38,391 bases of DNA from assembly GCA_902578675.1 (NCBI GenBank), contig CACHDV010000011.1:1-38391 (forward strand), written 5' to 3'. Shown in pieces: positions 901-18,040 of the stretch. Each line of letters starts with the position of its first letter. Position 1 is the stretch's first letter. The position numbers were made by a program, and so were the translations under genes. The notes beneath the pieces were generated by a model. The model did no database searches. It had not been told where the DNA came from and saw only the letters and a list, made by a program, of their open reading frames with translations. The DNA is from an uncultured Alphaproteobacteria bacterium (GTDB lineage Bacteria; Pseudomonadota; Alphaproteobacteria; Thalassobaculales; Thalassobaculaceae).

Positions 901-1133
901 CCGCCTTCCACTTCAATTGATTTTTTCATGCAATATAACCCAATAAACAGCTGCGGAGTGAAAATAAATTTGTTTACTCTGAAGTTGTCATATTAATCAT
1001 TGATCGAAGAGCCATATGTTACTTTTTAATGCTCGTTATTTTCTTGTGTCCGGTCTGATTAACTCTTGATTTGATATTTGAAACTAAAAGTAAGTTCTTT
1101 AAAAACAATTTAAGATGCTAATGTTATTCTGTT

Positions 1134-1691
1134 TTGGTGATAGATCCGAAGCTTGGTAATCTTTTTATGATGTCAAAAGTATCAAAAAGTCCTTCAGTTT
1201 TTTTAGACAGAGACGGCGTTCTCAATAAGGATATCGGCTATGTCCACAAACCGAGCCAAATTAATTGGATCCCTGGAGCAAAGGAGGCTGTGGCATTACT
1301 TAAAAATCAAGGTTATCTGGTTTTTGTGGTAACGAACCAATCTGGGATCGCTAGAGGCCTATATACTGAAGATGAGGTTGAGTACCTGCATGCCTGGATG
1401 AATGGGCAATTATTGAAATCTGGGGGCAGTTCTATTGACGATTTTCGTTACAGCCCCTACCACCCAGCCTTTGAGAATGAGACCTATGCTTACTTTAAAA
1501 ATTGGCGTAAGCCTGGCGCTGGAATGATTTTAGATATTATGGAAAAGTGGCCGGTTGATAATCTTCAATCCTTTTTGATTGGAGATAGACAGTCTGACAT
1601 TAAGGCAGCTGAAGCGGCTAATATTGCAGGTTTTTTATTTAATGGCGGTGACCTACTCACTTTTGTAGAAGCTATATTGGCATCCCGTTAA
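1134..1691 (+). CDS. gmhB: D-glycero-D-manno-heptose 1,7-bisphosphate phosphatase-like HAD hydrolase
   Basis: HAD-family phosphatase of the GmhB/histidinol-phosphatase type, 185 aa from TTG at 1134 (ATG at 1167 is an alternative; neither has a good Shine-Dalgarno). Motif I is LDRDGVLN with Asp25 and Asp27, motif II lies in VTNQSGIARG (67-75), the Arg-Lys pair is in WRKPGAGM (124-131), and motif IV is IGDRQSD with Asp151 and Asp155. The role inferred is removal of the 1- or 7-phosphate in ADP/GDP-heptose synthesis for LPS, strongly supported by the heptose-7-phosphate kinase gene 92 bases downstream. Oddity: the zinc loop of E. coli GmhB (C-P-H-H-P ... C-D-C-R-K-P) reads S-P-Y-H-P ... K-N-W-R-K-P here, so all four zinc ligands appear to be lost. 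The fold can still work without zinc in principle; this is inference. Confidence 0.85.
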   Translation: MVIDPKLGNLFMMSKVSKSPSVFLDRDGVLNKDIGYVHKPSQINWIPGAKEAVALLKNQGYLVFVVTNQSGIARGLYTEDEVEYLHAWMNGQLLKSGGSSIDDFRYSPYHPAFENETYAYFKNWRKPGAGMILDIMEKWPVDNLQSFLIGDRQSDIKAAEAANIAGFLFNGGDLLTFVEAILASR

Positions 1692-1783
1692 AAAACGCGA
1701 TAAGTTAGGGTTTACTTCATTATTCTATTGCGTGACTAAATAGAGTTCACTTCTTTAAGTAGCTACGGATTTTTTTGTAAGGC

Positions 1784-2776
1784 ATGTCCACTCAAAACCA
1801 TTATCTGGATTTAATAACCCGCTTTGGCGGAAAGAAAGTAGCTGTTATTGGCGATATAATGCTCGATCGCTCTCTTTTTGGTGTTACAGAGAGGTTTTCA
1901 GCTGAAGCACCTATACCAATTGTCGATGTTAAGTCAAAGGTAGAGCAGCTGGGCGGTGCCGCTAATGTTGCAAATAATCTAAGAGCGCTTGGAGATACAC
2001 CGATTCTATTCAGTGTGGTCGGCGATGATCAGGATGGTAAAATTCTAAGTAAATTAGTTGAAGATGAGATCCAAGGCGAACATTTTATCTTTCGAGAAAA
2101 TAATCGACCAACAACTGTTAAAATGAGAACTTTTGCTAGGGATCGTCAAATCGCTAGAGCAGATTTTGAAAGCAGAGAAGAGGTCAAAAAAGAAGCTATT
2201 GAAAAATTACTGATTGGATTAAGCAGTCTTGCAAAAGATATTTCTGCGATTGTGATTGAGGACTACAACAAGGGGTTGCTGACGGCATCCTTTATCAAGG
2301 AAATTTTAAAAATAGCAAAGAAATTTAAGTTAAAAGTACTTGTAGATCCAAAATTTGATAACTTTTTCGTATATGAGGGCGTTACTCTATTTAAACCTAA
2401 TATTAAGGAATTATCGGAAGCTACATCTATCGAGATCTCCGACGTTGCGCACGTTGAAGAGGCAGCCAGCATTCTTAGAAAAAAATTAAAAACCCAATAT
2501 GTCATGGTAACAATGGGTAAGGACGGTATACTTCTTATGGATGAAAACGAGCGCTCTGTAACGCGACCAGCCTTTGTTAGAGTTGTAAATGACCCTGCAG
2601 GTGCTGGCGACACTGTGATAAGTGTTATGGCATCTGCGCTCATGGCGGGCATCTCGCCAGAGGATGCAATGGTGATAGCGAACTACGGGGGCGGTGCTAT
2701 TTGTGAGAGAGTTGGAATACAGCCCATTACTCCGCAAGACTTGAAGGATGCAATCTGCAGAAATGAGAAGAATTAA
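1784..2776 (+). CDS. hldA: D-glycero-beta-D-manno-heptose-7-phosphate kinase (HldA / RfaE domain I)
   Basis: PfkB-family sugar kinase of 330 aa that phosphorylates heptose-7-phosphate at C1 on the way to ADP- or GDP-heptose for LPS core. The N-terminal IGDIMLDRSLFG (22-33), the glycine-rich LGGAANVANNLRALG (56-70), and the C-terminal PfkB signature with GAGD at 273-276 (catalytic base Asp276) are all visible. Length matches the kinase domain alone; the nucleotidyltransferase domain found in fused HldE (about 480 aa) is absent, so a separate HldC or GDP-type enzyme must exist elsewhere. It follows gmhB on the same strand and its stop is 3 bases from the next start, which suggests co-transcription. 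ATG start; the preceding TTTTTTTGTAAGGC gives a weak AGG-type ribosome site. Confidence 0.93.
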   Translation: MSTQNHYLDLITRFGGKKVAVIGDIMLDRSLFGVTERFSAEAPIPIVDVKSKVEQLGGAANVANNLRALGDTPILFSVVGDDQDGKILSKLVEDEIQGEHFIFRENNRPTTVKMRTFARDRQIARADFESREEVKKEAIEKLLIGLSSLAKDISAIVIEDYNKGLLTASFIKEILKIAKKFKLKVLVDPKFDNFFVYEGVTLFKPNIKELSEATSIEISDVAHVEEAASILRKKLKTQYVMVTMGKDGILLMDENERSVTRPAFVRVVNDPAGAGDTVISVMASALMAGISPEDAMVIANYGGGAICERVGIQPITPQDLKDAICRNEKN

Positions 2777-2779
2777 CTG

Positions 2780-3277
2780 ATGTGTTTTCTCTCAAAGGTT
2801 TTAATGTCCTTAACAATTTTCATACGATTTAAAGTATTAATTTTTGTTGTTACAATTATTGTGAGTACCTTTACATCGAGGCTCGACTTTACTGCCCATG
2901 TTGAGGCGTCAGAGATACGGTCTACTAATAAAAAACATTTTAGGCAGGGGCCCAACAAAGGGAAGCCGGGGATGTTTGGGGCCCAAGGTAAAAAGTATAG
3001 AACTAGGATAATAGAAGCACCTAAAAGGGGTATGATAGCGAGTAATCCACAACCATTATTAAAAGCCGCTTCCCTTGATCGAGTAGCAAGTAAAGCTTGC
3101 CGCGATGGAAAATTGCGGCGTTTTGGTGGTGGTGTGGCAGAATTTGGAGGTAGAATATATCCAGCTGCAACACTCACCGATATTGCTCGCCAAGCTGGAA
3201 TTGAATTAGAGCCAGGAATTTATATTTTCGTGAGCGAGGGATCGACTGGGTGCCAAGTTTTTTTCTTCGAGGAATAA
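2780..3277 (+). CDS. Small exported or membrane-anchored protein of unknown function
   Basis: I do not recognise this 165-residue protein. It starts 3 bases after the hldA stop, so it is probably translated from the same message. Residues about 10-32 form a hydrophobic stretch (FIRFKVLIFVVTIIVSTF) that would act as a signal peptide or anchor, possibly cleaved near V-E-A-S-E. The middle (45-90) is basic and rich in Gly, Lys and Arg. The C-terminal 60 residues look folded, with GGGVAEFGGRIYPAATL, a short helix (TDIARQAG) and IYIFVSEGSTGCQVFFFEE. There are Cys residues at both ends of this part, possibly a disulfide. An overlapping antisense frame (2773-3177) is shorter, lacks sensible composition and is taken as a shadow. 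Context gives no function beyond possible envelope association with the heptose genes. Confidence 0.6.
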   Translation: MCFLSKVLMSLTIFIRFKVLIFVVTIIVSTFTSRLDFTAHVEASEIRSTNKKHFRQGPNKGKPGMFGAQGKKYRTRIIEAPKRGMIASNPQPLLKAASLDRVASKACRDGKLRRFGGGVAEFGGRIYPAATLTDIARQAGIELEPGIYIFVSEGSTGCQVFFFEE

Positions 3278-3360
3278 ATAATAAGGCGAGAGTTTTTGTA
3301 ATAAAATTGCAATGAATAATCGCTAATATGTGCACCGGTATATCTTGGGGGTAAAGACTT

Positions 3361-4401
3361 TTGGTTCGAATTGGCATAAATGGCTTTGGGAGGATTGGTC
3401 GTCTGGCGCTGCGTTGCGCTTTTGAGGGTAGTCAAACCTCTCTTACTACGCAAAATCCCAAAAAATATAAAATAGTCCAAATTAACGAGCTCAATGGCGA
3501 TGCACGAACAAGTGCCCATCTTCTGAAATTTGACAGTATTCATGGTCGTTGGCATTTCGATATATCCTCCAATGACTCGGCAATTCAGGTTGAAAAAAAT
3601 CAAATAGGTTACGGTAGCAAGGCAACACCATCTGAGCTTGACTGGGGTAAGTCAAAAATTGACCTCGTAATTGATGCTACGGGGCAGTTTAAAACTATCA
3701 GTGATCTGCAACCTTATTTCGATCTAGGTGCTAAAAAAGTTGTGGTAGCGTGCCCTGTCAAGGATCATCAAGCGTTAAATATCGTTATGGGCGTAAATGA
3801 CCATCTTTATGACCCTAAAAAGCATGATTTAGTAACGGCTGCATCGTGTACAACAAACTGCCTCGCGCCATTGATAAAAGTATTACACTCAAAAGTTGGC
3901 GTGCGGCATGGACAAATTACAACAATTCATGATGTTACGAACACACAAACGGTCGTGGACAAACCGCATAAAGACTTGCGGCGTGCTAGGTCTTCTTTAC
4001 TGAATTTAATACCCACCTCTACTGGTTCCGCATCAGCGATTGGATTAATTTTTCCTGAATTAGAGGGTAAATTAAATGGGGTCGCAGTGCGCGTCCCGCT
4101 ATTGAATGCTTCCTTAACAGATGCTGTTTTAGAACTAGAAAAGCCAGTAGATGTTGAACAAATCAATAATTATTTTTTAGAAGCAAGCAAGGGAAGTCTG
4201 AAAGGAATATTAGGTTTTGAAATGATGCCTTTGGTGTCTACAGACTATGTGGGGGACCCTCGTTCATGCATAATAGATGGTCTCTCTACGAAGGTTGTTA
4301 ATCGTACGCAAGTTAAAGTATTAGCTTGGTATGACAATGAAATGAGTTATGCGCATCGCTTGGTAGAACTTATTGAAAAAATTGCTAAAGATCTAGATTG
4401 A
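3361..4401 (+). CDS. ArsJ-associated glyceraldehyde-3-phosphate dehydrogenase (arsenate detoxification)
   Basis: Type I GAPDH, 346 aa, starting at TTG 3361. An in-frame TAA at 3352-3354 rules out anything upstream, and a run of five G (3347-3351) can serve as ribosome site. The NAD-binding G-x-G-x-x-G is in IGINGFGRIGR (4-14), the catalytic Cys163 in ASCTTNC (161-167), the catalytic His190 in TTIHDVTNTQ, and the C-terminal WYDNEMSYAHR is intact. In the ArsJ pathway GAPDH uses arsenate in place of phosphate to form 1-arseno-3-phosphoglycerate, which ArsJ exports. The immediate arsJ neighbour 20 bases downstream, and the divergence of this protein from house-keeping GAPDH around NTQTVVDKPHKDLRRARS, identify it as this specialised paralogue rather than the glycolytic enzyme. 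No ArsR gene or arsC reductase is visible. Confidence 0.92.
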   Translation: MVRIGINGFGRIGRLALRCAFEGSQTSLTTQNPKKYKIVQINELNGDARTSAHLLKFDSIHGRWHFDISSNDSAIQVEKNQIGYGSKATPSELDWGKSKIDLVIDATGQFKTISDLQPYFDLGAKKVVVACPVKDHQALNIVMGVNDHLYDPKKHDLVTAASCTTNCLAPLIKVLHSKVGVRHGQITTIHDVTNTQTVVDKPHKDLRRARSSLLNLIPTSTGSASAIGLIFPELEGKLNGVAVRVPLLNASLTDAVLELEKPVDVEQINNYFLEASKGSLKGILGFEMMPLVSTDYVGDPRSCIIDGLSTKVVNRTQVKVLAWYDNEMSYAHRLVELIEKIAKDLD

Positions 4402-9412: not shown

Positions 9413-10105
9413 ATGTTTGATAGAGCGTTAAACTACCCATACTCTACAATAGAGGGAGACTTCCTCTTTACTGATGGCGCTACTATTAAGCTCGAGGATG
9501 ATAGCTTTCTAAATAGTAGGCAAGCCGTATTAGCCGTTGGCTCAAATAGGTCTCCGGAACAATTAGTTAGAAAATTTGGTAGGAACGAGACGATTCCTGT
9601 AACCAAGGCGACGTTGCGTGATTATGATGTTTTTTATTCGGCCCATATTGCATCTTATGGATCTATTCCTGCGGTCTTAGGACGATCCGACGGCACGTCG
9701 GTTGATCTATCAGTAACCTGGTTATTGCCTCACCAATTGGAGCGCATGCACGAAACAGAGGCTCTCGGTAAAAGTTATGATTATGGAGAGTCTTCTTCTC
9801 TGCAACTTGACTTAGGTAATGATCGCTCTGCAAAAAGTATTGGTTGTTATTTGGGACGAAATGGGCGTGCGAATTTTGGCGGTGGTCCAATCGTTTTGAA
9901 AGAGCTAATGGCGTCAGACCGGAAATTTCCTTCTGCGGATCAAAAAACAATATTGACGCATTTCTATCACCTAAATTGTAAGAATAAAAGTTTTGAAAAA
10001 TGGTTGGAAACAATCATAAAGGATGATGATTTTCGAGCACAAGCATCAGAAGAGTTGGCTCGTTCTGCAATAAAAAATGATCTATCAGATTTCGAGGTAA
10101 TATAA
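9413..10105 (+). CDS. Gamma-glutamylcyclotransferase-like (GGCT/AIG2 fold) protein
   Basis: 230 aa cytosolic protein. The GGCT-like fold is suggested by VLAVGSNRSPEQLVRKFG (residues 40-57), the counterpart of the YGSNL substrate-binding loop, by SYGSIPAVLGRSDGTSVDLSVTWLL, and by LERMHETEALGKSYDYGE, where a Glu sits at about the place of the catalytic acid before a conserved Tyr. The first half of the loop has V-G-S-N in place of Y-G-S-N. The protein has about 60 extra C-terminal residues with a charged helical look. Its stop overlaps the next start by one base (TAATG), so the two are translationally coupled. I infer a possible cyclotransferase or amide-lyase activity with modest confidence; it could be a non-catalytic relative. 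Divergent from the CoA-ligase operon, 148 bases apart. Confidence 0.6.
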   Translation: MFDRALNYPYSTIEGDFLFTDGATIKLEDDSFLNSRQAVLAVGSNRSPEQLVRKFGRNETIPVTKATLRDYDVFYSAHIASYGSIPAVLGRSDGTSVDLSVTWLLPHQLERMHETEALGKSYDYGESSSLQLDLGNDRSAKSIGCYLGRNGRANFGGGPIVLKELMASDRKFPSADQKTILTHFYHLNCKNKSFEKWLETIIKDDDFRAQASEELARSAIKNDLSDFEVI

Positions 10106-10986
10106 TGCTGCGTCCGGATAGGTTGGGGTTAGTTGGATGCCTTCTTATATTTGCATTGTCATTTGTATTTCAGGACAGGGATAGCTCAGGAAGACACACG
10201 CCGTCGCCGGAAAGCTGGGAACCTCGCCGACCTGAAATTAGCGACACTCTAGAGCAAAGGCGCCCAAGAAGTGTTGGTCCAAAGCAGACCTTGCCAGAAA
10301 TTTCGAGTAGAGATCCTACATTGAAGCTGATGCCATCGGCAAAAGGAAATAGCACAGGTACAGCGTTTTCCATTGGAAAAGGTGTTTGGATGACAGCCAG
10401 GCATGTCATAGAGGGTTGCCGTAAATTTGGAATTAAGTCTGGCCCTAAAAAGATTTCGCGGGGACAAGACCCAGTTATTAATCCGCTCCATGACTTGGCA
10501 ATTTTTGATACTAGAACTACGGCACCAAATTTCTCATTCGGCAACGAAAACCTCTTCCTGGGGCAAGATGGATTTCACTTTGGCTATCCTCAGGGGAAAC
10601 CAGCGGCTATACATTCCTCCTTGCTCGGCCGAGCAAATATTAATCCTGGCCGACGCACCAGACATAAGGAACCTGTCTTAGCTTGGGCAGAAATTCGCCG
10701 TGTTCCAAACTTTTCTGGTTCTCTTGGCGGCATAAGCGGTGGACCGGTTGTTAATAAAGACGGAGAAATCATAGGCGTTTCAGTAGTTGAAGCGCGCCGT
10801 CGTGGGAGAATCTTCACTGCGGCTCCCAAAGGTTTAGAGGACATGCTCAGAAGAGATGCATCCTATAAACCTTCGGGTGGTGGAATCAAGTTTGATAATA
10901 CCATCAGTCCAAAACAGTTTTTTAAATTCGGTGAATCTTTAAGAAGGAAATTAGCCGTTTCTAAAGTGTTTTGTTGGGTTCAGTGA
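10105..10986 (+). CDS. Membrane-anchored trypsin-like serine protease
   Basis: 293 aa. Residues 7-23 (LGLVGCLLIFALSFVF) are a signal peptide or anchor, followed by a Pro/Arg-rich linker to about residue 78 and then a chymotrypsin-fold protease. The catalytic triad is visible: His100 in TARHVIEGC, Asp130 in HDLAIFD, Ser211 in GGISGGPVV. GYPQGKPAA (160-168) is typical of the family. The C-terminal 50 residues are outside the domain and end in CWVQ. There is no PDZ domain, so this is not DegP. It should act in the periplasm, processing or degrading envelope proteins. The gene is coupled to the GGCT-like gene by a one-base overlap, and it lies just before the repeat-protein genes of the type I secretion locus, but separate promoter elements follow it, so a link to secretion is only a possibility. 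Confidence 0.85.
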   Translation: MLRPDRLGLVGCLLIFALSFVFQDRDSSGRHTPSPESWEPRRPEISDTLEQRRPRSVGPKQTLPEISSRDPTLKLMPSAKGNSTGTAFSIGKGVWMTARHVIEGCRKFGIKSGPKKISRGQDPVINPLHDLAIFDTRTTAPNFSFGNENLFLGQDGFHFGYPQGKPAAIHSSLLGRANINPGRRTRHKEPVLAWAEIRRVPNFSGSLGGISGGPVVNKDGEIIGVSVVEARRRGRIFTAAPKGLEDMLRRDASYKPSGGGIKFDNTISPKQFFKFGESLRRKLAVSKVFCWVQ

Positions 10987-11217: not shown

Positions 11218-12795
11218 ATGAGTGTAGAAGATGGAGGAGCCGCAGGAGCCTCGACAGAAGTTGCTCCAACAGCATTTACCGATGTAATGAGCGCTACTTT
11301 TCAACAAGCAGTTGCAGATGGTGTTCCTCCCGCGGAAGCATTTGCTCAGGCAGAGGCTGCTTGCACGGAGGTCGCTATTGAAATGGGTGTCCCTGCTGCA
11401 GATGTGGCAGCAAACTTGGCGACTGCACAAGCCACCTTTAATGATGCCGTGGCGAGTGGGACAGACCCCGCGGCTGCAATGACCAGCGCTGCAGGGCAGG
11501 CAGCAACTAATATGGGGATGGAGCCTGGCATAGGTGGCGGCGATGCAACCTCTTTGATATCCAACGCGATGGGTTCAGCTTACGATGCAGCCATTCAAGC
11601 TGGTTCATCTCCTGCCGAAGCTTTTGCAATAGGCAAAGCAGCAGCAGAAACAGCTGCTCAAGAAATGGGTATTGATCCAGCAGCGCCAGGGCCATTTTTG
11701 GATACGATGACCTCTGTGCAAGCCACTTTTACGGACGCTGTTGCCACAGGAGCAGACCCGTTGGCTGCGATGGCCGGGGCTCAAGGAATGATGAATGCAG
11801 GCCCTGCGTTATTAGGAGACCCCGCGTTAATCGCGGCAAGTCCAGCATTCCAAGGGCCGTTAGAGGCTGGTTTTGCTGGGGGTATGCCCGAGGGTTTTGT
11901 TGCTCCAGCTATGGCGCAGGGGCCAGATGGTACTTTAATCCAGCCTCCGGTTTTGGGCGATGCGATGATGTTAGGGCCGGGTGGTGTTCCAATGGTCAAT
12001 CCAGCAATGATGCAAGAAGGTGCGATGGTATTTGGTCCAGATGGTTCTAGTGTGGCCGCCGATCCAAATTTTTTCCCTCCTCCACCTTTTGGGGATCCAG
12101 CATTTATACCGCCAGAAGCAGGAATGCCGGGCTTTGAAGCCTTCTCAACCTTGGCAACTTCAGTTGGGTTGGACCCGGCAGCTGCGGGCGTTCCTGGCTT
12201 TGTGCCACCACCTGGCACGCCGGGAATGGATCAGCCGGGTATGCCAGCGGCGCCACAATTCGATCCAGCAGGGGGAGTATTTGCTCCACCGGAATTTGGA
12301 CTTCCGGATCCGAACCCAGAAGGTTTCACAGTACCGCAACCTCCGGGTGGGGACTTTTTTACAGCACCCCCAGCAGATTTTTTTGACCCGGGTGCATTGC
12401 CTCCAGTTGGCGGTAATGAGCTAGGCGTTGGCACTTTTGCAGGTCCGGGAGCGCCTTTAGTTCCGGGTCCTGATGGTGGGTTAATACAAGATCCTAGTTT
12501 TGCGCCTCCGCCAGTAGAGGGATTTATCGACCCTGGCGCAAATTTTGTTGGAATACCACCTGATACAGGTTCGGCACTTGATACGGCCTTTGGGCCTGGT
12601 CCAGATGCTGGGGCAGAGCCCATATCGTTCGATCCAGTTGCAGATGCTGTCGGAAGTGCTGCTGACGCTGCGGTCTCACAAGGGCCAGCACCGGCTCCTG
12701 ATCCAGTAGCGGCGCCGACTGCTCCTGATCCAGGTCCTGCGGCGCCGGATCCGGGTGACGTTCCGCCACCACCTGATGATCCAGTCGTTGGTTAG
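11218..12795 (+). CDS. Acidic Ala/Pro/Gly-rich repeat protein, probable type I secretion substrate
   Basis: Unrecognised 525-residue protein. Residues 25-197 hold four related blocks of about 35-40 residues with the pattern ATF-x-DAVA-x-G-x-DP-x-AAM ... MG-x-x-P (starting near 25, 70, 118 and 167), likely helical pairs. The remainder is Pro/Gly/Phe/Met-rich and probably disordered or polyproline-like (FFPPPPFGDPAFIPPE and similar). Composition is extreme: one Lys (140), no Arg, no His, no Trp, one Cys (49), very many Asp/Glu. There is no Sec signal peptide and no RTX nonapeptide. The tail PPPPDDPVVG resembles that of the next gene. It has its own promoter, a strong Shine-Dalgarno and an intrinsic terminator, as expected of an abundant product. 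Secretion through the adjacent ABC/MFP pair is inference from position, composition and tail. GC-rich codons set it apart from its neighbours. Confidence 0.8.
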   Translation: MSVEDGGAAGASTEVAPTAFTDVMSATFQQAVADGVPPAEAFAQAEAACTEVAIEMGVPAADVAANLATAQATFNDAVASGTDPAAAMTSAAGQAATNMGMEPGIGGGDATSLISNAMGSAYDAAIQAGSSPAEAFAIGKAAAETAAQEMGIDPAAPGPFLDTMTSVQATFTDAVATGADPLAAMAGAQGMMNAGPALLGDPALIAASPAFQGPLEAGFAGGMPEGFVAPAMAQGPDGTLIQPPVLGDAMMLGPGGVPMVNPAMMQEGAMVFGPDGSSVAADPNFFPPPPFGDPAFIPPEAGMPGFEAFSTLATSVGLDPAAAGVPGFVPPPGTPGMDQPGMPAAPQFDPAGGVFAPPEFGLPDPNPEGFTVPQPPGGDFFTAPPADFFDPGALPPVGGNELGVGTFAGPGAPLVPGPDGGLIQDPSFAPPPVEGFIDPGANFVGIPPDTGSALDTAFGPGPDAGAEPISFDPVADAVGSAADAAVSQGPAPAPDPVAAPTAPDPGPAAPDPGDVPPPPDDPVVG

Positions 12796-12803
12796 TAATT
12801 TAT

Positions 12804-12833
12804 AAGGCGGGGACTTATTCCTCGCCTTTTTTT
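12804..12833 (+). terminator. Intrinsic terminator after the first repeat-protein gene
   Basis: AAGGCGGGG pairs with CCTCGCCTT (one G-T wobble) around a 7-base loop, and the stem runs into seven T. It begins 8 bases after the stop codon, so the gene is normally monocistronic. Confidence 0.9.
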
Positions 12834-12931: not shown

Positions 12932-12965
12932 TTTCATATCTTTAATTTTTGAAGGAGAATTTTAG

Positions 12966-13922
12966 ATGCCAATTGGCGATAATATAGATCCGGCTACGCT
13001 GGACGCGGCTACAATGGCTGACATGCCGGCAGCCGACATGGGCGCTGCGACGGCCGCGGACATTGCAGCAATGCCTCCAGAGGCGATGCAGGGTATGGAC
13101 GCTGATATGATGGCGGCACTGCCGCCTGATGCCATGGGTGGTATGGATGCTGATATGATGGCTGCCTGCCCTCCAGAGGCGATGCAGGGTATGGACGCGG
13201 ATATGATGGCGGCAATGCCACCTGATGCAATGTCAGCTATGGGTCCTGATATGATGGCTGCCTGCCCTCCAGAGGCGATGCAGGGTATGGATGCGGATAT
13301 GATGGCGGCAATGCCGCCTGATGCAATGTCAGCTATGGGCCCTGAGATGATGGCGATGATGCCACCGGAAGCAATGCAGGGTATGGATGCGGATATGATG
13401 GCGGCAATGCCACCTGAAATGATGTCAGCTATGGGCCCTGAGATGATGGCGATGATGCCACCGGAAGCTATGCAGGGTATGGATGCGGACATGATGGCGG
13501 CAATGCCTCCAGGGGTAGCACCACCTCCAGGACCAGAAGGTATGGCACCACCGGCAGACGCTGGCGGGATGGGTGATATGGACGCTCTAGGTGCAGCTTT
13601 CGGCGCGCAAGGTGTTGAGCCAATGGCTGGACCTGATCCAATGGGAACTAATCCACCTCCTGGACCCGAAGGTGATCCAATGGCTAATATGGCATCTCCC
13701 GATCCAATGGGAACTAATCCACCCCCCGGACCCGAAGGCGATCCAATGGCCGGTCTTGATGCGGCCCTTGGAGGAGCTATGGATCAAGCTATGGACCAAG
13801 GCGCTGGTGGGGGTGCCCCCGATACAGGAGCGCCACCAGACGCGGGCGCAGAAGCTCCAGTAGATGCTCCAGACACTGCGCCAGAGCCTGCGGCGGGACC
13901 GGACGAGCCGATAGTTGGTTAA
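12966..13922 (+). CDS. Met-rich 16-residue-repeat protein, probable type I secretion substrate
   Basis: Unrecognised 318-residue protein. After a 35-residue lead, residues 36-179 are nine tandem 16-residue repeats of the form [MLC]PP[ED]AM[QSG][GA]M[DG][AP][DE]MMA[AM]; alternate units differ (AMQGMDAD versus AMSAMGP), giving a 32-residue higher-order unit. Two 18-residue Pro/Gly repeats follow (223-240 and 245-262), then an acidic tail ending GPDEPIVG, close to the PPDDPVVG of the previous gene. By my count about 61 residues are Met (19%). There is no Lys, Arg, His, Trp or Tyr, and only two Cys, both at repeat starts. No Sec signal. The start follows a strong AAGGAG with an 8-base gap. Met spacing M-x2-M-x3-MM resembles Cu(I)/Ag(I)-binding Met motifs, and Met may also quench oxidants, but a structural or adhesive role is equally possible. 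Export by the next genes is inferred. Confidence 0.8.
   Translation: MPIGDNIDPATLDAATMADMPAADMGAATAADIAAMPPEAMQGMDADMMAALPPDAMGGMDADMMAACPPEAMQGMDADMMAAMPPDAMSAMGPDMMAACPPEAMQGMDADMMAAMPPDAMSAMGPEMMAMMPPEAMQGMDADMMAAMPPEMMSAMGPEMMAMMPPEAMQGMDADMMAAMPPGVAPPPGPEGMAPPADAGGMGDMDALGAAFGAQGVEPMAGPDPMGTNPPPGPEGDPMANMASPDPMGTNPPPGPEGDPMAGLDAALGGAMDQAMDQGAGGGAPDTGAPPDAGAEAPVDAPDTAPEPAAGPDEPIVG
13071..13502 (+). repeat. Nine in-frame tandem repeats of 48 bp
   Basis: The units begin every 48 bases from 13071. Unit pairs starting at 13167 and 13263 (96 bp) differ at only a few, mostly silent, positions, and the AMQG units at 13359 and 13455 are nearly identical as well. This points to recent unit duplication or gene conversion, so repeat number may vary between strains and may be hard to assemble. 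It is coding, not CRISPR. Confidence 0.95.
13632..13751 (+). repeat. Two 54-bp coding repeats in the Pro/Gly region
   Basis: Bases 13632-13685 and 13698-13751 both encode PDPMGTNPPPGPEGDPMA, separated by four residues (NMAS). Differences between the copies are silent (for example cctcctgga against ccccccgga), so they are also a fairly recent duplication. Confidence 0.9.
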
Positions 13923-13941
13923 AAACTACTAAAGTTCATAG

Positions 13942-13972
13942 AGAGCCGGAGCAAATGCTCCGGCTCTTTTTA
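13942..13972 (+). terminator. Intrinsic terminator after the Met-rich repeat gene
   Basis: AGAGCCGGAGC and GCTCCGGCTCT form a perfect 11-bp GC-rich stem with an AAAT loop followed by TTTTTATTT. This is the strongest terminator in the window and isolates the gene from the transporter operon. Confidence 0.95.
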
Positions 13973-14090: not shown

Positions 14091-16229
14091 ATGAATGAAC
14101 GATCTATTAGATCCCTGTCCCTAAGCACGATTGCCTTGGCAAGACAGTTTGGAATTAGAGTTACAGCAGAGCAAGTCGAAGAGAAAATTTCGCGCGGACA
14201 TATCTCGTCAAAAAATGATCTTGAACAGACATTTAAAGAACAGGGTATAAAATTACAATATCTCAAACCCTCGCTACGCACGCTTATCGAGCGATCGTAT
14301 TATTTTCCTTGTGTCGCAATTCTGAGGGATGGAACTTCCAGGATCTTGATAAGTTGCAAGGTCAATGACGAGAATATAGCAGAATTTCAAACGATAGACC
14401 CGTTAGATCCCACGAATAAGGTGGTGCTAGAAAACGAAACTGAGTTTAAAAGCACTTGGAATGGGGCAGTTTTTCTCGTTAGCCGTGAAACTGGTGTCGA
14501 CTCTCAGGATCGCCTTTTCGACTGGAGGTGGTTTATTCCTGAAATTTACAGATTTAAAAGTTTACTTGGGGTCACATTTATTGTTTCGATTTTAACGCAT
14601 CTTTTGGGTCTTGCCCCTATTGTATTTATACAGATATCACTTGATAAGGTTCTAAATTATGGAGCAGTTGGAACTTTATACATTTTAGCTGCTGGGGTGG
14701 TTGGTGCCTTAATTTTCAACGGCATTCTCGGTTTTGTCCGTGATTATGTTATAAACTTTGTATCTACCTCGATAGAAGCTAGGCTTGCGGGCGATGTATT
14801 TGACAAGGTTATGTCGTTACCAGCATCTACATTTCAGACCGGGTCGCCAGCGGAATTCGAGGGGATTTTGCAATCGCCTTTAACGATCAAAAATTTTATA
14901 TCACGCCAAGTTCTTACGACCATTTTTGATGCTACAGGATTACTAGTATTTATGCCGGTCCTATTTGGCTATAGTCCCGCGCTTGCCTTGATCGTTGCAT
15001 GTTTCACGATTTTGATTGGAGCAATAACATTATTTAGTCGCTGGCGGCAAAAGGAAGAGGGTAAGATTACGGGACCGATAGAAGCCTCAAAAAGAAGAAC
15101 AGTTCAAGCTAGCGTTGCCGGTATCGAAACGATAAAGGCATTTTCTTTGGAGCCCACTCAACGTAAGGAATGGCGACAAATATCTTCGAGCAGTATTAGA
15201 CGGTCTGTTGCAGGTCAAATAGCAAACCTTGCAGTTACAAATATTAATTCTACTCTCACCCAAATTATGACAGTGGTATTGGTATTCACTGGAGTTCTAC
15301 TGGTCTTGGCGGGATCACTTTCAGCTGGAGCTATCATTTCATGTAACATGCTGGCAGGTAAGTTAGTTGCTCCAGTTACAGCCATTTTTACATTTTTCGC
15401 AGACTTAACAAATTTCAAAAATACAATTGACACAGTGGGGACAACTTGGAATGGGCCTACTGAACGTTTAGGGGCAGGTAATCAACATGTAGTCAAGGGT
15501 GGGGTAGTTTGCCGCGACGTAATTGTCAAATTTGATGACACGGCAGCACTAAATGGTCTCAATCTCGATATTGCACCTCGAACTAAAGTAGCGGTAGTAG
15601 GGCCATCTGGATCTGGGAAGACAACTTTTCTGAGGCTTTGCCAGGGTTTTTTGAGGCCTAATATGGGTGCAATGGAAATTGACGGGCAAAATATCAGGTA
15701 TCTCAGTCTGGATAATTACCGAAGCCAGACGACGTTGATCGATGCCAAGCCGGTCTTTTTTGGAGCAACGATCGAAGAAAATTTGAGAAAGGTGCAGCCA
15801 AATATAAGCGAGAGAGAGTTTCAGGAAATTCTTGATATATCCGGGTTATCAAAGGTGTTGGAGGAATTACCAGACGGTATTTCTACCGAAATAAATCAGT
15901 TTGGACTACCCTTATCGCAAGGAAATCGGGTTACCGTTGCGCTAGCGAGGGGGCTGATGGCAAAGCCAAAAATATTGTTATTGGACGAGGCGCTGGTTAA
16001 TTTTGATAAGTCTACACAGATTGGCTTTTTTGAAAATTTCCCTAAGATTGCCGAACATAAAACGGTGATGATGGCAACTCATGATATGCGGCTGACTGCT
16101 GAATTTGAGCAAATAGTTGTGCTTGAAAAGGGTGTGGTTGTTGGTCAAGGGAAGCACGAGGATCTTCTTAAGACATGTCCATTGTACAAAGAGTTATGGA
16201 CAATGGATCAGAAACTATCAGGGGCCTAA
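14091..16229 (+). CDS. Type I secretion ABC transporter with C39-like N-terminal domain (HlyB/PrtD type)
   Basis: 712 aa, the length of HlyB-type exporters. Residues 1-130 look like a C39-peptidase-like domain without the catalytic Cys motif, so it should bind rather than cleave substrate. Five to six membrane helices lie between about 158 and 445, and the ATPase from about 470 has Walker A GPSGSGKTT (504-512), Walker B ILLLDE (628-633) and His664 in ATHD. The ATPase is unusual: the signature reads LSQGN (608-612) rather than LSGGQ, the Q-loop reads IDAKPVFF (no Gln at 552), and Walker B is followed by A-L-V-N-F-D. It lies 35 bases before the membrane fusion protein gene and after two candidate substrates. 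No TolC-like partner is in the window. I infer a dedicated exporter for the two acidic repeat proteins. Confidence 0.9.
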   Translation: MNERSIRSLSLSTIALARQFGIRVTAEQVEEKISRGHISSKNDLEQTFKEQGIKLQYLKPSLRTLIERSYYFPCVAILRDGTSRILISCKVNDENIAEFQTIDPLDPTNKVVLENETEFKSTWNGAVFLVSRETGVDSQDRLFDWRWFIPEIYRFKSLLGVTFIVSILTHLLGLAPIVFIQISLDKVLNYGAVGTLYILAAGVVGALIFNGILGFVRDYVINFVSTSIEARLAGDVFDKVMSLPASTFQTGSPAEFEGILQSPLTIKNFISRQVLTTIFDATGLLVFMPVLFGYSPALALIVACFTILIGAITLFSRWRQKEEGKITGPIEASKRRTVQASVAGIETIKAFSLEPTQRKEWRQISSSSIRRSVAGQIANLAVTNINSTLTQIMTVVLVFTGVLLVLAGSLSAGAIISCNMLAGKLVAPVTAIFTFFADLTNFKNTIDTVGTTWNGPTERLGAGNQHVVKGGVVCRDVIVKFDDTAALNGLNLDIAPRTKVAVVGPSGSGKTTFLRLCQGFLRPNMGAMEIDGQNIRYLSLDNYRSQTTLIDAKPVFFGATIEENLRKVQPNISEREFQEILDISGLSKVLEELPDGISTEINQFGLPLSQGNRVTVALARGLMAKPKILLLDEALVNFDKSTQIGFFENFPKIAEHKTVMMATHDMRLTAEFEQIVVLEKGVVVGQGKHEDLLKTCPLYKELWTMDQKLSGA

Positions 16230-16264: not shown

Positions 16265-18040
16265 ATGTCGGGTGATCAAACTTTTTCTAGTGGGGAATAT
16301 ATATTTCGCGAAGGCGAGAGCGCAGTATATGGATATATCGTCAAGTCCGGTGTAGTTGAAATTGTGAAACATGGGTCTGGTGGGGACCAAGTGCTGGCAG
16401 AATTAGAGCCGCCTACTATTTTTGGCGAGATGGCGTTAATAGATGGTAATCCGCGAAGTGCTGGCGCTAGGGCGAAGGGTGACACCGTTGTAACAGAAGT
16501 CACGGCAGAAAATTTTGTGAACTATCTAAGACAAAATCCGGAAGCCGCTATTCGGATTATGAAGACAATATCAGAAAATTTAAGGGCGGCGAACCAGCTT
16601 GTAGCAAGATATGAAAGCTTGAGTGGAGACGCTTCGCAGATAGTGGAGGTCGGCATCAATGGAGCTGACGCGAGTCATGACCACGAGATAAATGACACTG
16701 ACGCAATTTACAAACAAGGCCCGTCAAAACCATTACTGATATCAACGATTAGTTTATTAGCATTCTTTATCTTGGGAGTAGTGTTTGCGGCCCTTAACGA
16801 AGTTGATACAACAATTTCAGCCAGAGGCGAGTTTATGACAGCAACGCCAAACTTAATTGTAGAAGCGAGTGCAAGCTCCGTCGTTAAAAGTGTTGAAGTT
16901 GAGCGGGGTGACGCTGTTTCCAAGGGTCAGATAGTTGCGTATTTGGATGACACTGTCGTAAAGGTAAACTTAAAACAAAACCAGGAAAAGATAGATAATA
17001 TTTACCAGTCATTGATCCGGCTTAACATGGAACAGTCACTCGTGGACAGGCCAAGTGAATTAAAGCCAACTATTAGTTTGGATAATCTCTACTATGATAC
17101 TGTTAAAAAGTTGGGGCTAAAAAATACCAGCAATTCACTTAGCGAACTCTATAAAAACACCTTAGTTAAAAAAGTTACAGAATACAGAGAAAAAAATAAC
17201 TCCTTTAATTCCAAGTTGACAAAACTCCAGAATGAATATGAAGCATCTAGGGAACTATTCAAAATATCTGAGAAGCAGTCCGAAATTAAACGAAAATTAA
17301 CAAAGGTTCAAAAAGATCTCTATGATCGTAAAATTGGTTCTCTGCTGAAGTACTTACAAGCAAAAGACCAGTTATTAAATGCGGAAAAAGCTCAGTTTAA
17401 TGCTCAGAGTGCAATAACAAAGTTAAGATCTGAAATTACCACATTGAACGCGGACAAGCAGGCTTTCATTGCGCAATGGGCCTCTAATCTGACAGCTGAA
17501 ATCACTGGCAAAAACGAAGAATTAATGCAACTTGAGCAGGAAAAGATCAAATTGCAGAGGTTAGTTGACAATATCGTTGTTAGATCTCCGGGTGACGGCG
17601 TTGTGCTTGATATACCGTCTGTTGCTAGCGGAGGAAACATCCGTGAAGGTGACCCAATAATTACACTTGTTCAAACAAATCAACCACTCTTTTTGGAGGT
17701 TGATATTGACTCGAAAGAAATTAGCGACATAAAGATTGGAATGCCAGTCTCTGTGAAGTTGGATGCGATGCCATTCCAAGAATTTGGTGGATTAGACGGA
17801 GAATTAGTATTTATCTCAAAAGATACATTTAATGAATCCCTTGCTGGTGATAAGGGTGTTTATTATCGGGGAAGGGTTAAAACCCAGAGCGTCAAAGACT
17901 CAAAAATGCCACAAGACTTTAACCTCTCTCAAGGCATGCTGGCGTCGGCAGATATCAAAGTAGGTAAACGAACATTGATTACATACTTCACTTATCCAAT
18001 AATGAAAGCTTTTGAAGAATCTTTTACGGATCCAGAATAA
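16265..18040 (+). CDS. Membrane fusion protein (HlyD family) with N-terminal cyclic-nucleotide-binding domain
   Basis: 591 aa. Residues 1-115 form a cNMP-binding domain: the phosphate-binding cassette FGEMALIDGNPRSAGARAK (53-71) aligns with E. coli CRP GELGLFEEGQERSAWVRAK and keeps the ribose and phosphate ligands Glu55, Arg64 and Ser65. A charged linker leads to one membrane helix (156-177), then a typical HlyD body: half-lipoyl motif VVKSVEVERGDAVSKGQIVAYLDD (here 206-229 in outline), a long coiled coil (about 290-440), the second lipoyl half VRSPGDGVVLDIP, and a beta-barrel end. The cNMP domain would therefore face the cytosol, beside the ABC ATPase. This is an uncommon architecture for a fusion protein. 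It is co-transcribed with the ABC gene (Shine-Dalgarno GAAGAGAG). Gating of export by cAMP or cGMP is inference; the domain might also serve only in assembly. Confidence 0.9.
   Translation: MSGDQTFSSGEYIFREGESAVYGYIVKSGVVEIVKHGSGGDQVLAELEPPTIFGEMALIDGNPRSAGARAKGDTVVTEVTAENFVNYLRQNPEAAIRIMKTISENLRAANQLVARYESLSGDASQIVEVGINGADASHDHEINDTDAIYKQGPSKPLLISTISLLAFFILGVVFAALNEVDTTISARGEFMTATPNLIVEASASSVVKSVEVERGDAVSKGQIVAYLDDTVVKVNLKQNQEKIDNIYQSLIRLNMEQSLVDRPSELKPTISLDNLYYDTVKKLGLKNTSNSLSELYKNTLVKKVTEYREKNNSFNSKLTKLQNEYEASRELFKISEKQSEIKRKLTKVQKDLYDRKIGSLLKYLQAKDQLLNAEKAQFNAQSAITKLRSEITTLNADKQAFIAQWASNLTAEITGKNEELMQLEQEKIKLQRLVDNIVVRSPGDGVVLDIPSVASGGNIREGDPIITLVQTNQPLFLEVDIDSKEISDIKIGMPVSVKLDAMPFQEFGGLDGELVFISKDTFNESLAGDKGVYYRGRVKTQSVKDSKMPQDFNLSQGMLASADIKVGKRTLITYFTYPIMKAFEESFTDPE

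Follow-up and report, generated by a model that had tools for sequence, protein, structure and literature searches.

The 38,391-nucleotide stretch of uncultured alphaproteobacterial DNA analyzed here (the window; source genome 62% complete) encodes a 318-residue protein in which nearly one residue in five is methionine, which raises the question of where such a protein acts and what its methionines do. The original prediction had counted about 61 Met and no Lys, Arg, His, Trp or Tyr, and a recount of the open reading frame (ORF) agreed exactly: the protein contains 61 Met (19.2%), 71 Ala, 56 Pro, 39 Gly, 37 Asp, 15 Glu and 2 Cys, none of the five excluded residues, and a single Phe as its only aromatic. 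We propose that it is one of two cargoes that leave by type I secretion, with export probably tuned by a cyclic nucleotide (cNMP), and that it may form an acidic polymer with a methionine core and functional thioethers, a reading to which we give an even chance.

A constrained gene of extreme composition

Chance can be excluded as the source of this composition, because the rest of the window is far lower in Met and richer in Lys, Arg and His. The other genes average 2.2% Met and 13.2% Lys, Arg and His combined, and the longest run free of Lys, Arg, His, Trp and Tyr in their 10,558 residues is 52. Leu, Ile, Val and Phe account for just 4.4% of the Met-rich protein in total, and Met is also abundant outside its repeats. 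The protein had further been described as cheap in nitrogen and costly in sulfur, which is correct: side-chain nitrogen amounts to 0.038 atoms per residue versus 0.342 in the rest of the window, and sulfur to 0.198 versus 0.032. Since it has no Lys or Arg, the protein would be invisible in a tryptic proteome.

The ORF is a real, constrained gene, as indicated by its Shine-Dalgarno sequence, the terminator-like hairpin behind it (Table 1) and a low dN/dS (0.10–0.17 against same-genus orthologues, consistent with purifying selection, and ~0.04 for the non-repeat part against relative L003). Gene, composition and selection are all supported by computation. On the opposite strand, an ORF of 176 aa (12962–13492, − strand), rich in Ile, Ala and Ser, spans the repeats; it mirrors their ATG-rich codon pattern and was rejected as a gene.

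Table 1 Features of the Met-rich protein locus (window coordinates).
Feature	Position	Strand	Basis or remark
Trypsin-like protease gene	10105..10986	+	PF13365; syntenic in relatives; system membership uncertain
Second cargo gene, Ala/Pro/Gly-rich and acidic, 525 aa, 1 Lys, no Arg/His; AFxxAxAxGxxPxxAF repeats; ends DDPVVG	11218..12795	+	
Intrinsic-terminator-like hairpin 3' of second cargo gene	12804..12828	+	
Shine-Dalgarno AAGGAG of Met-rich cargo gene	12952..12957	+	Read directly; 8 bases before ATG
CDS, Met-rich cargo protein, 318 aa	12966..13922	+	ORF and composition; orthologues; dN/dS about 0.1
Nine contiguous 16-residue units (residues 36–179), each predicted as two 8-residue helical octads	13071..13502	+	AF2 period-8 helices; HeliScrew4 match with column-permutation control
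C-terminal module (residues 254–318): short amphipathic helix (predicted, 262–277) and acidic Pro-rich tail ending DEPIVG; candidate type I secretion signal	13725..13919	+	Shared with sister cargo above shuffles
Intrinsic-terminator-like hairpin, 13 pairs, directly 3' of Met-rich cargo gene	13940..13969	+	
Type I secretion ABC transporter	14091..16229	+	PF00664 + PF00005; N-terminal domain in C39-like position
HlyD-family adaptor with N-terminal cyclic-nucleotide-binding domain	16265..18040	+	TIGR01843 above cut-off
cNMP-binding domain, FGEMALID...PRSA phosphate-binding cassette	16277..16537	+	PF00027

Linkage to a type I exporter with a cyclic-nucleotide-binding adaptor

The original prediction mentioned neither the secretion operon around the gene, nor the sister cargo gene, nor the cNMP-binding adaptor. 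In the exporter, a candidate for the HlyB/LssB/PrtD kind, PF00664 and PF00005 score above cut-off, and the best NCBIfam models, TIGR03375 and TIGR01846, match near full length below their subfamily cut-offs; the domain in its C39-like position has no Cys near the usual catalytic site. The adaptor reaches 237.1 bits with TIGR01843 (cut-off 208.65), and its first 90 residues are a cyclic-nucleotide-binding domain. No TolC-like outer-membrane partner was noticed in the window; the TolC gene commonly maps apart from the exporter genes. OEP genes adjoin the distant operons L060, L085, L086 and L088.

A scan of 84,980 species genomes returned ten loci, by title from the SAR116 cluster, Rhodospirillaceae, Rhodobacteraceae and uncultured Alphaproteobacteria, and the gene is conserved in SAR116-like marine Alphaproteobacteria; the contigs of many relatives end inside the repeats. 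Wherever a relative's contig runs on, the genes stand in the sequence cargo, ABC transporter, adaptor, with L010 as the exception and with a cyclase gene inserted between cargo and ABC genes in L008. Within the same taxonomic order, the Met-rich protein occurs in seven of nine genomes with the ABC gene and in none of 27 without it (Fisher p about 4e-6); in the two exceptions the contig begins partway through the ABC gene. The count leaves out a match in G029 (an ALTTAQ-type protein) and a weak one in G015. This computed linkage makes the predicted secretion by the adjoining type I exporter well supported by context, and the earlier proposal of a secreted product is supported by the linked exporter rather than by a signal peptide.

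We rejected a viral origin (no relative among viral contigs and no PHROGs match) as well as a plasmid origin (no plasmid relative of the protein); the plasmid-borne adaptors that were found aligned mostly only beyond the cNMP part. Two further observations concern relatives. One contig of a same-genus genome ends in another, diverged Met-rich N-terminus (L023; G003:C5:18500-18727, on a contig shared with L066), which is either a paralogue or contamination. In L010, a homoserine O-succinyltransferase gene for methionine synthesis (2082-3056) lies two genes after the Met-rich cargo; it was not seen elsewhere, and its proximity is perhaps chance.

The sister cargo is likewise rich in Asp and is poor in Met (4.4%, the second-highest fraction in the window). 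A terminator-like hairpin follows each cargo gene, which suggests that the cargoes are transcribed separately and would let them outnumber the exporter. The two proteins have a C-terminal module in common that none of 500 shuffles equaled; the Met-rich one ends in DEPIVG and its sister in DDPVVG. A profile HMM of the Met-rich C-terminus found no match among other cargo proteins, an evident relative included; because it missed that relative, probably through composition correction, we compared C-termini by pairwise alignment with shuffles. Those of L085, L086 and L088, from the distant genus g381, are strongly alike, and those of L085 and L086 resemble the alphaproteobacterial L060 and L061 (z about 4–6); direct likeness between alphaproteobacterial and g381 C-termini is weak (z about 1–2.6) and depends on the intermediate L060. 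Prediction supports the helix and acidic tail as a putative export signal. Upstream, a 230-aa protein without Pfam match and the trypsin-like protease (9413–10986) precede the cargo genes in two genera, and may have a part in processing or releasing the cargo.

The pairing of two cargo genes for proteins rich in small residues with a type I exporter, in an alphaproteobacterium, recalls Cdz of Caulobacter, a system of contact-dependent glycine zipper proteins in which two such cargoes leave by type I secretion (PMC5380434), and the locus could accordingly be read as a two-protein surface antibacterial of that kind. GxxxGxxxG is absent from the Met-rich protein (the Ala-rich one has two short isolated copies), both proteins are about 4–6 times larger, strongly acidic and not hydrophobic, and no small immunity membrane protein was seen at the locus. 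Lacking glycine zippers and differing in size, the pair is very improbable as a Cdz-like bacteriocin.

The proposed cargo system has a possible regulatory input. The 12 adaptors compared come from at least two classes, and each retains an intact phosphate-binding cassette, FGE(M/L)...R(S/N)A. In L008 and L009, the immediate neighbor of the Met-rich cargo gene codes for a nucleotide cyclase (PF00211, adenylate/guanylate; L008:2827-3735 and L009:6660-7547). Given the intact cassettes, which are supported by computation, and these neighboring cyclases, cAMP or cGMP probably tunes export in this branch. The cNMP-HlyD adaptor fusion is also present in another class of the phylum, and its occurrence in two classes suggests a nucleotide-controlled branch of type I secretion.

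An octad repeat and the possible role of its methionines

Nine 16-residue units with Met fixed at positions 1, 6, 9, 13 and 14 had been predicted. The nine units stand, and positions 6, 9, 13 and 14 are Met in all of them; position 1 is Met in only six, with Cys in two and Leu in one. The unit divides into two octads, M-P-P-E-A-M-x-G and M-D-A-D-M-M-A-A. In phmmer searches, the protein matched HeliScrew4, a solved structure with LTPEQIAA-type octads (PDB 9zem), at 2.5e-14, and the distant homologue L009 matched it at 1e-12. Against the HeliScrew4 stretch the protein scored 55 bits, whereas none of 100 versions in which the 16 unit columns were permuted, with composition and periodicity kept, rose above 35 (median about 0), and fully shuffled sequences stayed at or below 5.5 bits. 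AlphaFold2 (AF2), working from shallow alignments of 8–10 sequences, predicted short helices that recur at intervals of about 8 residues in the Met-rich protein and in the L009 homologue alike; block-mean pLDDT was 81–87 for residues 11–80 of the former and up to 90 in L009, falling to about 55 in the later repeats of the Met-rich protein (pTM 0.38–0.41). An 8-residue periodicity with core positions 1 and 6 was thus found by autocorrelation and profile, by AF2 and against the permutation control, so the repeat is supported by computation, and prediction supports reading the 16-mer as two units of an ALTTAQ/HeliScrew-like helical repeat. Foldseek searches of the PDB and BFVD gave no match at E <= 0.001; the top PDB match, mesothelin, reached only 0.01–0.03 with low TM-scores and was set aside. 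We also discarded a UBM (PF14377) match at residues 40–55 as a pattern coincidence (21.0 bits against a curated cut-off of 23.3, over 16 residues).

This fold bears directly on the suggestion that M-x2-M-x3-MM binds Cu(I) or Ag(I). In the octads, the hydrophobic core falls on unit positions 1, 6, 9 and 14, where ALTTAQ proteins and HeliScrew4 have Leu or Ile; of the five fixed Met positions, four therefore belong to the core and only position 13 is extra. Because the spacing would follow from the fold, it is not by itself evidence of a metal site. It could even be that this is an unremarkable octad-solenoid surface protein, whose Met merely fills the hydrophobic core and became fixed through drift and the duplication of repeats: relative L064 opens with units that carry Leu, Ile or Phe at the core positions and turns Met-rich later, and among relatives Met varies to Leu, Val, Ile, Cys or Ala. 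Such a plain core accounts poorly for the high Met content beyond the repeats and for the scarcity of Leu, Ile, Val and Phe in the window protein.

More distant operons, traced with the adaptor as query, weigh against it as well. In genus g381, which belongs to a different class of the same phylum, all four transporter-bearing genomes found have a Met-rich neighbor protein with 11–16% Met, 16–23% Pro, 26–38% Asp plus Glu and 0–2 Lys/Arg. Their repeats are non-solenoid, Pro-rich and unrelated to the octads: QPPMDG in L085, PPMDGEGPP in L093, MDEMDEMEEMEGM in L086 and PPDPDGTMMGDGTM in L088, where the protein ends at the contig end. Met-richness is not universal for this transporter type, since Met reaches only about 5% in the L059 and L060 cargo, which also contains some Cys or His, and the L089 and L090 operons have ordinary cargo. 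Locus L060 encodes (1003-4008, − strand) a 1002-aa RTX-like cargo protein with, by eye, a FecR-like N-terminal part; it combines the second cargo's AFxxAxAxGxxPxxA module with a stretch rich in Met and Gly, MGMGPGMGMG. Met-rich composition thus appears to be kept where the repeat sequence, and presumably the fold, differ. Together with the Cys replacements at unit position 1, where Cys is the commonest substitute (9 of 16 non-Met residues, not nine independent events, as repeat duplication may have multiplied them), this conservation leads us to argue that the sulfur chemistry is under selection. We consider the plain-core explanation distinctly unlikely.

What the sulfur chemistry would serve is less certain. 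A Met-specific role survives in view of the unrelated Met-rich repeats and the Cys replacements, and an extracellular Cu(I)/Ag(I) binder, whose clustered thioethers and occasional Cys or His capture or buffer soft metals at the cell surface, would fit 11–23% Met maintained across unrelated repeats, a Met-to-Cys exchange that changes all three bases, HH/HHH-M-D clusters in L085, DHMDH in L060 and seven Cys in L059. Yet the Met spacings are family-specific (3/1/4/5 in the window protein, 6/7 in L085 and 8/5 in L093) with no common motif, the octad fold should bury most Met, and no copper regulator, chaperone or efflux gene was noticed among the window's ORFs; we judge dedicated metal binding unlikely, if worth keeping in view. 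A check of g381 for a methanotroph/copper link gave no PF02461 match, but the control genomes were likewise without one, which makes the result uninformative.

A sacrificial oxidant trap had also been suggested, and its precedent is MrpX/BcrX, Met-rich proteins that absorb hypochlorite and are linked to MsrP/MsrQ and an ECF sigma factor (PMC8315932). The window protein has very high Met in common with them, and shares short Met-rich repeats and a presumed non-cytoplasmic destination with their MXKDX-repeat peptides. In contrast to these, it has no Lys and no MxKD units and adjoins a type I exporter, and no link to MsrP/MsrQ, an ECF sigma factor or methionine sulfoxide reductase was noticed in the window. 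Past the outer membrane, moreover, such a sink would be beyond regeneration and subject to dilution. Because the linkage that marks MrpX/BcrX was not seen here, a similar function is improbable.

A proposed thioether polymer and its place among known systems

We infer an extracellular destination, nucleotide control, a polymer function and a role for Met itself, which together give the following proposal. With cAMP or cGMP tuning its activity, the type I exporter would move two acidic polymers onto or outside the cell, with the C-terminal helix and acidic tail as export signal. Once outside, the Met repeats may form a long helical screw with a core of Met, in place of the usual Leu/Ile, beneath a strongly acidic shell, and the product would be a polymer of the surface or matrix that is soluble, flexible and sensitive to oxidation; the self-assembling extracellular matrix of the original prediction stays plausible to the extent of a self-assembling repeat protein. 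The thioethers would most likely serve soft, redox-responsive assembly and possibly also Cu(I)/Ag(I) binding. More tentatively, and on balance doubtfully, a cNMP-gated type I branch spanning at least two classes may exist to export Lys/Arg-free, Met-rich acidic thioether polymers. Their repeats would be interchangeable, with helical octads in one lineage and Pro-rich loops in another, the combination of thioethers and acidic residues would be retained, and they would act through soft-metal binding or redox-controlled assembly.

If the proposal is true, marine bacteria export a costly, sulfur-rich and nitrogen-poor polymer through a dedicated exporter, possibly under cyclic-nucleotide control, and the system offers a direct way to ask whether bulk Met helps to capture metals, sense oxidation or assemble surfaces outside the cell. 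A charge-skewed class of cargo distinct from RTX proteins would be gained as well, with the cNMP domain joined to the HlyD adaptor as a handle for finding more. In the literature covered by our search, which took in a minority of subscription journals, nothing was found on HeliScrew, ALTTAQ or the cNMP-HlyD fusion and nothing relevant on methionine-rich type I cargo, and no model in Pfam, NCBIfam or PHROGs scored above cut-off for a Met-rich cargo with cNMP-HlyD adaptor.

Among known systems, the octad solenoids of ALTTAQ proteins (PF20080) and HeliScrew4 share with the Met-rich protein the 8-residue repeat with its core at positions 1 and 6, a predicted short helix per octad and an in-register match. 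The Met-rich protein differs from them in having Met for Leu/Ile, alternating octads, Pro at positions 2–3, no conserved Gln at position 5 and an acidic character. We do not place it in PF20080 despite this likeness, because the profile gave no match to it at E up to 1; true ALTTAQ proteins scored 1e-203 to 1e-220. ALTTAQ-type proteins of about 1600–1700 aa, consisting almost entirely of 8-residue repeats, were seen in other Alphaproteobacteria (L065, L072, L073 and L074). RTX-class cargo (HlyA-, LapA- and adhesin-like) resembles the two cargo proteins in lying beside ABC and HlyD genes and in being acidic, Lys/Arg-poor and repetitive with a putative C-terminal signal, whereas neither cargo protein has GGxGxD, and the Met-rich one has 19% Met and just one aromatic residue. 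Both type I secretion and the octad solenoid are familiar; what seems new is a cargo rich in Met and free of Lys and Arg, joined to a cNMP-HlyD adaptor.
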